Virus record (IMG/VR): IMGVR_UViG_3300032797_000066
Span: 1-23,415 of that record
DNA length: 23,415 nt
Source of the DNA: a virus
Reading direction: 5' to 3' (one strand)
Of the stretch, positions 1 to 21,600 are shown piece by piece. Position 1 is the stretch's first letter; every line of letters begins with the position of its first letter. The notes under the pieces were generated by a model. The model saw only the letters and a list, made by a program, of their open reading frames with translations. It was not told the origin of the DNA and made no database searches. The translations under genes and the position numbers were made by a program.

Positions 1-259
1 CCGCTTGCGTACCGTGCCCGCTCTGAAAAATAAAGCGCCGGTCCGCTTGCGCGAGCCACATCAACCGCTCGCGAATATCGCTGGCCTCCGCGCGCTCGTT
101 GACCGCCAGCCGCACGGGCGTTTCAATCGCGCCGCTCGCCAACAGCAGCCGTTGCCAGCCGTAGACCTTTTCTAGCTTCATCGCCGCGAGCACGCCGTCA
201 TTCACCGGGTTGATGAGCCCGCGTGCGTTCGTACCGATGCAAAGCGCGCGGTAGATCAC
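1..259 (-). CDS. caspase-like protease (peptidase C14 / metacaspase type), 5' part only
   Basis: A GTG start at 259 overlaps the stop of the preceding gene (GTGA), and a GGGA lies about 7 bases upstream. The 86 visible codons run off the left edge. Residues 4-11 (RALCIGTN) match the first beta strand of the caspase fold. Residues 18-31 carry the PVND...A..L pattern that follows in metacaspases. Residues 61-70 look like the helix before the catalytic His, and residues 75-84 (RFIFQSGHGT) match the hallmark SGHGTQ motif, making His82 the predicted catalytic histidine. The catalytic Cys would lie beyond the window. Known members of this family are cysteine peptidases, often cleaving after basic residues. 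Placement after a holin-like gene and a lipoprotein-like gene suggests a late role in lysis or host-cell killing, but that is inference. The family call is strong and the function is open. Confidence 0.8.
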   Translation of the reverse strand, partial: MIYRALCIGTNARGLINPVNDGVLAAMKLEKVYGWQRLLLASGAIETPVRLAVNERAEASDIRERLMWLAQADRRFIFQSGHGTQA

Positions 260-958: not shown

Positions 959-1318
959 CTACTCCGTTATCAGTTTTTGCAGTTTGCTGAGGTCGGCTCG
1001 AATAGGCCCATCGCCGAGCGACGCCAACGGTTGCGGATGCAGCTCAATCTCCTCTTCTATCGTGAGGAGTGCTTCGAGATCCGCGATAAACTCCTTATAG
1101 CCAGGACTGGTGGCCTTGACCGCGCTATTGCCGTTTTCCTGTTTTTCGCCGTGCTTCGTAATCAACTCGTTACGGGATTTTTCAAACGCGGTAACCGCTG
1201 TTTGCAACCGCGCCAAGTCGCGGCCGAGCCAGTACTTAGTTTTTACCGGCAAGGATTCGTTGCATAGCGTCTGTAACGGGCCGACCGTTTCAAGAATTTC
1301 TTTTAGAGTAAGTTTCAT
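959..1318 (-). CDS. small helical phage protein, DUF1617-like
   Basis: This 119-residue protein begins MKLTLKEILE and continues with heptad-like Leu spacing (residues 1-60) including K..YWLGRDLARL and F.KSRNELITKHGE. It ends in an acidic helix (FIADLEALLTIEEEIEL). This resembles the pattern of small phage proteins of unknown function grouped as DUF1617, which sit near tail or late genes. That family resemblance is from memory and moderate. The product is likely cytoplasmic, all helical and possibly a coiled-coil dimer. Its ATG overlaps the stop of the 77-residue gene (ATGA), so the two are probably coupled and may act together. Confidence 0.55.
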   Translation of the reverse strand: MKLTLKEILETVGPLQTLCNESLPVKTKYWLGRDLARLQTAVTAFEKSRNELITKHGEKQENGNSAVKATSPGYKEFIADLEALLTIEEEIELHPQPLASLGDGPIRADLSKLQKLITE

Positions 1319-1548
1319 GGCGCATCCTTTACCGCGTCAAAGTCGTTCAGGAACGCGACATACTCTTGCTTCATCTTCGCGAACGGCGCGCGGGTGATTT
1401 CCTCCGCAATTTCCTGCGTAGTCACGGTGCCTTCATCGTCGGCTATGGTTACCTTCGTCCAGCAAATCATTTGTAGCGGCACCTTTTGCGTGCGTTCAAG
1501 TCGAACGCGCCCCTTGGCTTTCAGTCTCGTGTATTCGTTGATGTTCAT
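1315..1548 (-). CDS. hypothetical 77-residue protein
   Basis: I do not recognise this protein. It is short, starts with a basic stretch (residues 8-22, rich in Arg and Lys), then has a probable beta hairpin (MICWTKVTIADDEGTVTT) and an acidic helical end. There is no signal peptide or membrane segment. The start at 1548 has an AGGAG about nine bases upstream, in the 12-base gap after the tail fibre gene. Its stop overlaps the next start, linking it to the DUF1617-like gene. It lies between the fibre and lysis genes, where tail-fibre helpers or lysis accessory proteins are often found, but nothing in the sequence decides between them. Confidence 0.55.
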   Translation of the reverse strand: MNINEYTRLKAKGRVRLERTQKVPLQMICWTKVTIADDEGTVTTQEIAEEITRAPFAKMKQEYVAFLNDFDAVKDAP

Positions 1549-12722: not shown

Positions 12723-13430
12723 TTACGGCATTTCGTAAGATGACCGTATTTTTTCAGGCGAGCCGGTTACCCGATTACCCGCCGTGTTTTCAATATCCTG
12801 CCAAAGTTCATCCAATTCATTTTTGAGAGCGGTTATATCTTCTTCCTGATCCGTTTTGACCTTGATAGCCGCCTTGATTACTACCCATTCTTCCCATCCG
12901 AACCGACTATCGATATAATCGGTATCGGCCGACATCTCGTCTATTTCCGCATCGTCGGCCGAACCGTATCCCTCTTCCCAAGCTACGGCGGTAGGCACGT
13001 AATGCACGGTTACCGTATGTACCGCTATCGGTGTGGGCGTGAATCGTACCTGGCGGCCCTGCATTCGATGCCGCACATTCGTTGAGTCGGTGCTGCCGGC
13101 GCTCCATCCCTCAGCGCTTACCTCGGTATCTATATCATCGTTGCCGGCGCGAGGTATATCTATTCGATATCCGTCCAAAGTTACGCGAAAGAATTTCGCA
13201 ACAAAGCAGTCAGCGGGCATATCATAAAGGGCCTCACCCGCCTTGGTCGAGATTGTATCATTCTTATGCCGCCAATCTTGGCCATAAAGCGCGATAAGCC
13301 TTGATGTAAGTTGCCGGTTCGCCTCGTTCAGATAGCGCGCTATTTGAAGATTGGTTCTAAATTGCGAATCACCTAAACCGGATCGGTTGCGGACATCTTG
13401 GGTCATATTTACAAGCGTTCGGTTTAGCAT
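12723..13430 (-). CDS. head-tail connector / adaptor protein
   Basis: This 235-residue protein begins MLNRTLVNMTQDVRNRSGLGD, followed by ARYLNEANRQLTSRLIALYG. This is the helical opening of podovirus head-to-tail adaptors (P22 gp4 / T7 gp11-like and related phage adaptor families): short helix, then 'I...LNEA...L...'. The middle has the typical beta insert (YDMPADCFVAKFFRVTLDGYRI and VRFTPTPIAVHTVTVHYVPTA). A later helix follows ('DSRFGWEEWVVIKAAIKVKTDQEED') with a coiled end. It should form a dodecameric ring below the portal and join it to the tail hub, whose gene lies just downstream. Its start overlaps the end of the glycosyltransferase-like gene by seven bases. The family call rests on pattern and gene order. 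Confidence 0.72.
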   Translation of the reverse strand: MLNRTLVNMTQDVRNRSGLGDSQFRTNLQIARYLNEANRQLTSRLIALYGQDWRHKNDTISTKAGEALYDMPADCFVAKFFRVTLDGYRIDIPRAGNDDIDTEVSAEGWSAGSTDSTNVRHRMQGRQVRFTPTPIAVHTVTVHYVPTAVAWEEGYGSADDAEIDEMSADTDYIDSRFGWEEWVVIKAAIKVKTDQEEDITALKNELDELWQDIENTAGNRVTGSPEKIRSSYEMP

Positions 13431-14101
13431 TGCAATCCTAGTTCTTTCCTGAGTCGCGGCATTTCGCCACGGGCTTGGTTATAAAGCCGCCTTTCGTCGT
13501 GTGATAATTCTATCACCTCGGTTACATAGCTTGGTCCGGCCGGACAAATCATGAGTTTATTTCGCGACTTGTAAAAAGCCGATACCAAGGCCTCGTCATC
13601 GAGACTCGAATATTTATCCATCATCTCGGCCGTAGCAAATTCGGATGCCCAAAATTCGGCGATATCAACGCCGTAACCAAATACGATACACGCGTGAAAT
13701 ATCTCAAGTTTTTTATCTTGAGGAATAGGCTTATTAAAGTTTTTATGCCTTTTCCCGCTGAGCCATCCGCCCCAAGAAATTAAGCGAGCGCCCGTGCGCG
13801 CGAGTTCGTCGAGACCATGAGTAAAAAATCCAGGCTCGATATTAAGATCGTCATCAATAATAACAAACCGCTCTAAATCGGCCGCGAGACGCCAGCGTAA
13901 AACGTGGCCCCTTTCTTTTGTCGCGATAATGATTATCGGCTTTCCACTCAGATGGTCTTTTACCTCGGTGACATCGGTTAAACTATAACCATCGAGAATC
14001 AGCAATAAGGGAAAGCCCTGGCTTTCTGCCGTATCGGCCAGGCGCAGCATGTTTGCCTTACGCCACGGAACCGAGGCCATTATTACGCCTAGGCTAGTCA
14101 T
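13424..14101 (-). CDS. glycosyltransferase-like protein (GT-A fold, DxD motif)
   Basis: This 225-residue protein shows a GT-A pattern: an opening strand (SLGVIMASVPWR), a second strand ending in ILDGYS (residues 33-40), then FVIIDDDLNIEPGFF with Asp83-Asp85 as the likely DxD metal and nucleotide-sugar site. A later SLDDEALVSAFY provides a plausible acidic acceptor-side motif. It would transfer a sugar from a nucleotide donor, but donor and acceptor cannot be read. The gene sits inside the morphogenesis block, between capsid and connector genes, so possible targets are virion proteins, host surface glycans or modified DNA. GGGAG directly abuts the ATG and the start lies inside the previous gene (8-base overlap). 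A weaker in-frame start is Met8. Confidence 0.68.
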   Translation of the reverse strand: MTSLGVIMASVPWRKANMLRLADTAESQGFPLLLILDGYSLTDVTEVKDHLSGKPIIIIATKERGHVLRWRLAADLERFVIIDDDLNIEPGFFTHGLDELARTGARLISWGGWLSGKRHKNFNKPIPQDKKLEIFHACIVFGYGVDIAEFWASEFATAEMMDKYSSLDDEALVSAFYKSRNKLMICPAGPSYVTEVIELSHDERRLYNQARGEMPRLRKELGLQC

Positions 14102-14725: not shown

Positions 14726-15148
14726 TTATACTCCCGCCCCGTCGGGCACGTTGGCGTATTTGAACGTCAACGAAACGTGAATTTGGTTTCCCGTAGCCGC
14801 CGCAATATCCGCTGCCGCAAGTATGCCATAGATATCTTCCAAGAACGCCCTTACAACTATCGTTCCGGCGGATAGGTCAATGGTTCCTAGCTGCACGATA
14901 TTTAGCGCGGCTGTCGCCAATTGTAGCGAGACCTGAGCAGAGATCAGGCCTCGCACGTTTTTGTAGGGCTTAGACATTGTAATAGTCCAAACCCCTGTTG
15001 CAGTATGCGCTACCGAATCTATCCAGTTGCCACGAATGCCCGCAGCAGCCGGCGTACTCGACCCGTTAGGGGCAAATCCGCCGGCATACCGCACCTCGGC
15101 CTTATGCGTGGTTTCGAGGGTAGACCGTGCGAATCCATATGTAGCCAT
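14726..15148 (-). CDS. small virion-type protein, paralog 1 of tandem pair
   Basis: This 140-residue protein is a tandem paralog of the next gene (14299-14724). Conserved blocks span the full length: ETTHKAEVRYAGGFAPN, TPAAAGIRGNWIDSVAHT, GVWTITM, RGLISAQVSLQLATAALNIV and QLGTIDLSAGTIVV. The composition is Ala/Thr/Gly/Ile-rich and probably beta-sandwich. It lies 13 bases downstream of the major capsid gene, where phages commonly encode head decoration or stabilising proteins. The ribosome site is a GGGG/AAGGGG stretch about nine bases before the ATG. No specific family name is recognised. Confidence 0.68.
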   Translation of the reverse strand: MATYGFARSTLETTHKAEVRYAGGFAPNGSSTPAAAGIRGNWIDSVAHTATGVWTITMSKPYKNVRGLISAQVSLQLATAALNIVQLGTIDLSAGTIVVRAFLEDIYGILAAADIAAATGNQIHVSLTFKYANVPDGAGV

Positions 15149-20943: not shown

Positions 20944-21170
20944 TTCACGGTATATTCGATATCCGCAATATTGGCGAGCGGCGTAAACCTCACTACTCCC
21001 GCCATATCCTTGCGGCGGCGCTCGATGCCGCCCTGGACCTGCTCGATTATGAGATTTCCGTTGTCGCCGCCGTTATCGATATAGCCACAGACCTGATCGG
21101 CCTGCCCCATCTTGGCAACCTTCATCCTAAACCATACTCGCTTTATCTTGCGTTCCGTGTCTTTGTTCAT
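20940..21170 (-). CDS. hypothetical 76-residue protein in terminase block
   Basis: I do not recognise this protein. The first 20 residues are strongly basic (KDTERKIKRVWFRMKVAKMG), followed by a likely beta-rich section (CGYIDNGGDNGNLIIEQVQGG, GVVRFTPLANIADIEYTV). It could be a small nucleic-acid-binding or adaptor protein for the packaging complex, but that is only inferred from charge and place. GAGG lies about eight bases before the ATG, and the start lies inside the end of the acetyltransferase-like gene (44-base overlap). The stop overlaps the large terminase start (ATGA). Confidence 0.58.
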   Translation of the reverse strand: MNKDTERKIKRVWFRMKVAKMGQADQVCGYIDNGGDNGNLIIEQVQGGIERRRKDMAGVVRFTPLANIADIEYTVK

Positions 21171-21600
21171 TTGCTTTTTCCTCTTTCCAGTTGTTGTTAA
21201 TCAGCCATGCTTTGAAGCCGTCGCTGCGCGTCGGGTAAGTATACACGCCGCCGGACTTTTTGCAATGCTCTTGGATTAGCCGCCGCGCTATGCCCTGCCG
21301 CTTGTACGCATATTTTACATAGCAATAATAAATCCGGGTAGGCTCGGCACATAGCCAGCCGATGTAGCAGTCCGACTCGCCGGGGATCGATGCAAGCGCG
21401 GGCGGGTAGCTCTCAACCAGCGCCGTGATCCGGCGTAAGAACTCAGTTAGGGTCGGCGGCCATTTCTCATGCGGTTCGCGTAAAACGCGCATGTCAAACT
21501 GCCCTAGCTGCCAGAGTTGCGAGGTAATCCAGCTATGCAGGATAAAGTCACGCGCCGGGTCGTCGCGCTCAGTTACTATCCGGGTTTCTATCTCTAACAT
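21127..21600 (-). CDS. GNAT-like N-acetyltransferase within terminase operon
   Basis: This 157-residue protein contains YVKYAYKRQGIARRLI (residues 94-109). The RQGIA core fits GNAT motif A (R/Q-x-x-G-x-G/A), the acetyl-CoA pyrophosphate-binding loop before the helix. The preceding GWLCAEPTRIYYCYV matches the beta4 strand, and the following GFKAWLINNNW the usual late helix and strand. Family members transfer an acyl group from acyl-CoA to amines on proteins, antibiotics or metabolites; no acceptor can be read here. It lies between small and large terminase genes and overlaps both neighbours (32 and 44 bases), so it is expressed with packaging proteins. The ribosome site is weak (GAAAG). A role in modifying packaging or host proteins is inference. 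Confidence 0.68.
   Translation of the reverse strand: MLEIETRIVTERDDPARDFILHSWITSQLWQLGQFDMRVLREPHEKWPPTLTEFLRRITALVESYPPALASIPGESDCYIGWLCAEPTRIYYCYVKYAYKRQGIARRLIQEHCKKSGGVYTYPTRSDGFKAWLINNNWKEEKANEQRHGTQDKASMV

Follow-up and report, generated by a model that had tools for sequence, protein, structure and literature searches.

In host organisms, proteases of the caspase type are associated with programmed death and with immunity. To our knowledge, the gene for such a protease is not a known component of phage lysis cassettes. Whether a phage may carry one there is a question raised by a linear IMG/VR fragment of 23,415 bases (hereafter the window), at whose left edge a preliminary description, made from the sequence alone, had recognized a truncated caspase-like (peptidase C14) gene behind a holin-like and a lipoprotein-like gene. 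The C14 family itself is known, and its placement on the lysis side in phages appears to be undescribed in the open-access literature searched: a search there for papers that treat a caspase together with holin, endolysin and lysis cassette gave none, and one on phage caspases or metacaspases gave only a mention of giant viruses. Here we ask what the truncated gene encodes, whether its surroundings recur in other phages, and what the protein might do.

The left end of a late gene block

The window holds a late gene block on the minus strand (Table 1). At its left end lie small genes, the last three being the holin-like gene, the lipoprotein-like gene and the C14-like fragment. The frames of the preliminary description were recovered as it had given them: that of the fragment runs from its GTG start to the contig edge without a stop, it shares the GTGA with the end of the lipoprotein-like ORF, and the small hydrophobic ORF lies upstream. 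No Pfam or PHROGs family was found for the holin-like gene, and no endolysin was recognized among the window proteins scanned against these two collections. Taken by itself, the window thus gives modest evidence of a lysis module, in the form of the lipoprotein and its small membrane-protein neighbour. The one near-identical contig found (L002/L003) stops before the C14-like gene.

Table 1. Features of the window, with positions counted from its first base
Feature	Position	Strand	Remarks
C14-like fragment, 5' part, 86 aa	2..259	-	open at contig edge; GTG start; His82 in SGHGTQ
Lipoprotein-like gene, 123 aa	256..627	-	lipobox-like LCGC; stop overlaps GTG of C14-like gene
Holin-like gene, 105 aa	639..956	-	hydrophobic stretch within residues 25-72 (hydropathy)
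phrog_1401 gene, 119 aa	959..1318	-	unknown function; E 2.8e-9; next upstream, same late block
77-aa gene	1315..1548	-	unknown function; 4-base overlap with the 119-aa gene
Glycosyltransferase-like ORF	13424-14101		between structural genes; by reading only
Adjacent similar ORFs, 141 and 140 aa	14299-14724 and 14726-15148		directly downstream of capsid gene; apparently tandem paralogues
Acetyltransferase-like ORF	21127-21600		between terminase genes; by reading only
Large terminase-like gene	late block	-	
Portal	late block	-	P22_portal (Pfam), E 1.9e-6
Major capsid	late block	-	weak SU10_MCP match
Tail and fibre genes	late block	-	

Kinship of the fragment with C14 peptidases

The GC contents of the fragment by codon position (0.66/0.45/0.80) are gene-like and favour a coding sequence. 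The caspase/metacaspase pattern attributed to it earlier is borne out, with RALCIGTN at residues 4-11, PVND at 18-21 and FIFQSGHGTQ at 76-85; His82, numbered correctly, aligns with the catalytic His column of C14 relatives. Alignment A6 places in the fragment the first strand (ALxIGxN) and the ND helix characteristic of C14, and the (S/A)GHG His that follows strand 3 is likewise present. The catalytic-Cys region and the p10 small subunit would fall beyond the contig edge, the fragment representing the His-bearing first half.

The HMM searches proposed in the preliminary description gave a divided answer. The Pfam Peptidase_C14 model (PF00656) does not match the fragment at E 1 or E 10, and its curated cut-off is not reached. 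Since three true phage C14s, when shortened to 81-84 aa, still reach 47-55 bits with the same model, the miss is not due to truncation alone, and we therefore speak of a divergent C14-like protein and not of formal Pfam membership. By contrast, an HMM of the first viral set of C14 proteins, with the window sequence left out, scores the fragment at 29.1 bits, against 9.3 bits for the top of 5000 shuffles, and hhalign returns a probability of 97.6 (E 4e-12). A bacterial-only C14 HMM gives 6.3 bits, which is no proof of viral descent because the bacterial set is much narrower. The aligned fragment is 36-41% identical to the nearest phage C14s, and BLASTP against one of the relatives (L036) gives E 1e-7 in a small set. 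Single-sequence searches with the fragment found no relative in phages, plasmids, viral and genome contigs (tblastn) or PDB sequences; PHROGs holds no family for it, and the PADLOC defence models, run on the fragment only, gave no match at E 10. A weak Pfam match to RPN1_C (E 0.034) was dismissed as chance.

An AlphaFold model of the fragment, for which the input alignment included C14 homologues, has a pLDDT of 82 and comprises strand 3-10, helix 17-33, strand 49-54, helix 59-70 and strand 74-81. This beta-alpha-beta-alpha-beta order is that of metacaspases and also of the model of a full-length phage C14 (from contig L043, see below). Yeast-type metacaspases were the top PDB matches of the fragment model by Foldseek probability, with E values of 0.2-0.5 that are not significant. 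Judged from motifs, profiles and predicted fold, the window protein is a divergent C14-like protein with its His present and its Cys region beyond the edge.

Viral C14 relatives

Relatives were collected starting from an SGHGTQ-type DNA pattern, which led to contig L004, and the relatives of L004 led to L010 and a phage genome of 485 kb. An alignment of these C14s yielded 45 viral and 80 bacterial loci; with a later alignment 34 viral loci were obtained, many of which the first had not given. C14 genes are present in dozens of IMG/VR contigs. When INPHARED was searched by tblastn with five different full-length C14 queries, a single record of 50,697 matched, itself metagenomic, so that catalogued phages almost entirely lack C14. 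Of 54 viral C14s, 48 have both catalytic residues, His and Cys, in alignment, and the catalytic Cys stands in DxC(H/F)SG in 51 of 54 phage relatives. The homologue in L043 retains both residues, and its full-length model matches PDB metacaspases at E 1e-13 to 1e-9.

Two unusual architectures were observed among these genes. In L047 (4831-6795) and L048 (6516-8594) the phage C14 gene is interrupted directly after the catalytic SGHG (SGHG|CFAGDTR or CFSGDTR ... VFVHN|SQV) by an intein, recognized by Pfam Intein_splicing (E 1e-16 and 6e-21) together with HNH_3, a placement by which completion of the protease would need splicing. The C14 proteins of L050 (1837-2748), L051 (7872-8723) and L052 (7575-8378) have re-ordered segments: the first strand and ND helix are followed by the Cys segment with a small-subunit-like part, and then by a C-terminal SSHG-GDExDGxDE-DDE segment (segment HMM E 7e-11 to 3e-14), which is not a plain circular permutation. 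Small membrane proteins lie near all three of these genes, and L052 also has an M15 endolysin.

Recurrence of the lysis-side placement

The preliminary description had assigned the gene to a lysis-type neighbourhood and proposed a search for its gene order in related phages. Both points were upheld, the order being repeated in L043 (IMGVR_UViG_3300032397_000043), which gives the strongest support, and the placement recurring in further phages. Read from its sequences, L043 has baseplate J-type as well as tail-fibre genes. In this contig a 99-aa TM protein, a 142-aa lipoprotein-like protein, C14, two small genes and an Amidase_2 endolysin follow one another. Its C14 gene overlaps the upstream lipoprotein-like gene by 11 bases, and the endolysin (E 1.2e-20) lies about 0.66 kb past C14, in a region that in the window is beyond the contig edge. 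The lipoproteins of the two contigs align with a Smith-Waterman score of 90, where 5000 shuffles reach at most 62; this is the best score among 649 proteins, the next being 52. As the two are homologous, the lipoprotein-C14 pair is common to two phages. The other genes compared, over 12 kb of L043, show no similarity, and the lipoprotein profile A5 brought up no additional relatives. By analogy with L043, an endolysin probably lies just past the contig edge of the window.

Ten wall-hydrolase families were then searched for over the full length of 41 viral records that carry C14, which was located in 40 of them. A hydrolase was recognized in 15 contigs, and in eight of these it is within 1.5 kb of C14: Amidase_2 (L043), Amidase_3 (L038), M15 (L049 and L052), lysozyme (L035), NlpC/P60 (L010), muramidase (L018) and an SLT domain resembling tail lysozymes (L013). 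Uniform placement predicts 1.35 such cases (P 7e-6), a yardstick to be read with the facts that phage late genes are not uniformly placed and that several of the families were picked because C14 neighbours suggested them. Nor are all the cases independent, since L035 and L038 are sisters and L050, L051 and L052 are related. A family-blind test over the first 25 families listed pointed in the right direction and was not significant (6/147 neighbours at distance 1-2 versus 1/128 at distance 5-6; Fisher P 0.13), and in a control with the neighbours of bacterial C14 genes no wall hydrolase was among the 25 families listed of 87.

Membrane neighbours were also found where no hydrolase is nearby. 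In L032 a holin (PHROGs lysis, E 1e-6) is one gene upstream of C14, and in L140 small TM genes, for which no holin family match was obtained, precede C14 with a 4-base overlap. In eight of the ten lysis-side loci whose gene spacing was checked, C14 either overlaps the stop codon of the preceding gene or starts no more than 15 bases after it. Most C14 genes in long contigs have no recognized hydrolase near, and in L029, L031 and L147 the phage C14 gene is directly behind HAD-like or MazG-like genes; the lysis side is thus not the sole setting of phage C14. In a quickly built C14 tree, in which some branches are long, the lysis-side genes group together in part and require at least two label changes (four by parsimony); lysis-side C14 is therefore likely to have been recruited more than once or exchanged repeatedly.

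A possible role at lysis and its alternatives

These observations suggest, short of proof, that lysis in some phages draws on an enzyme of the caspase type. For the window, the reading we prefer, and hold with moderate confidence, is that it contains the start of a cytosolic C14-type cysteine protease belonging to a late lysis module and acting at or near lysis. The predicted protease would be co-translated with the lysis proteins late in infection and would stay in the cytosol, because a signal peptide would have no space before the first strand of the fold, which starts at residue 3. It might cleave host or phage proteins when the holin permeabilizes the membrane, or shortly before, and such cleavage would help to dismantle the cell, free virions or set the timing of lysis. 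Because the lipoprotein is predicted to be exported, the two proteins would meet only before export or after the membrane is breached. Type I metacaspases are often Ca2+-dependent. Gating of the protease by Ca2+ upon holin opening was considered and is not claimed, the relevant residues being off the contig and the acidic motif degenerate in L043 and the nearest relatives. A broader version, in which a caspase-type protease has been recruited into phage lysis on more than one occasion and forms a unit with a membrane partner (holin or lipoprotein), proteolysis triggering or being triggered by permeabilization as in a viral counterpart of the caspase-gasdermin pair, strikes us as unlikely.

A lesser but genuine possibility, and the main rival of this reading, is that C14 is accessory cargo of the moron type, placed at the tail/lysis junction and serving the host cell or provirus, for example against competing phages. 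That junction is a frequent site of phage cargo. The distribution of C14, which is patchy, diverged and located elsewhere in most long contigs, fits this explanation, as does the GC3 of the fragment (0.80) and lipoprotein gene (0.73), which exceeds that of the structural genes (0.54-0.67) and, for sequences this short, is a hint of later acquisition. Bacterial caspase-like proteins are moreover described in defence, at gasdermin loci and as Craspase (PMC9612521, PMC9729208). Against cargo of this kind speak the stop/start overlaps with lysis genes and the same-strand operons, a lipoprotein-C14 pair held in common by two phages of otherwise unlike genes, promoter or terminator signals at the junction that do not rise above shuffle level, and the PADLOC result.

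It is unlikely that the protease instead serves counter-defence by destroying a host immune protein during infection: rarity and patchiness would fit an arms race, yet a late-operon position is ill-timed against early defences and no conserved anti-defence neighbour was seen. That the gene encodes a caspase-fold pseudo-enzyme or is a broken remnant is decidedly unlikely. NPVND in place of GCVND, the absent Pfam C14 score and a Cys region that lies off the contig would be consistent with it, whereas SGHGTQ is intact, the frame is open up to the edge, and the catalytic pair is conserved in most relatives, as given above. Chance resemblance without caspase kinship, which the failure of the fragment alone to match Pfam, PHROGs, PDB sequences or, by pairwise tblastn, any relative might suggest, is extremely improbable given that profile, hhalign and predicted structure agree and that BLASTP links it to L036.

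Were caspases recurrent among phage lysis genes, a caspase would be found with the killer rather than the victim, and a protease would join the known lysis components. Full-length, testable C14 genes are now at hand in L043, L010, L018, L049 and L140, with which experiments on lysis timing and substrates are straightforward.

Comparison with known systems

With Peptidase_C14 (PF00656), the bacterial orthocaspases and the type I metacaspases (GSU0716, PDB 3bij; Yca1, 4f6o), the window protein shares the ALxIGxN strand, the (V)ND helix, the SGHG His after the third strand and the predicted order of the fold, and its full-length phage relatives share the DSC Cys and match metacaspase structures. 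It differs from them in falling below the Pfam model, in having NPVND for GCVND and NERAE for DERAT, in about nine extra residues before strand 2 and four fewer after helix 2, and in being phage-encoded among lysis-type genes.

A survey of operons published in 2012 described phage-related metacaspase operons in Clostridium botulinum and an amidase-containing metacaspase operon in Geobacter sulfurreducens PCA (PMC3501461). They gave an earlier indication of caspase homologues in operons related to phages and next to an amidase; no link to lysis cassettes was drawn there, whereas here the genes are on viral contigs and have a holin, a lipoprotein or an endolysin as neighbour. Bacterial gasdermin-caspase systems and Craspase couple a caspase-type protease to membrane permeabilization or cell death. 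They belong to host defence, whereas the neighbours of the window gene are holin-like and lipoprotein-like genes of a phage. With the phage lysis cassettes themselves, composed of holin, endolysin and spanin, the L043 locus shares a small TM gene, a lipoprotein gene and a downstream wall hydrolase.
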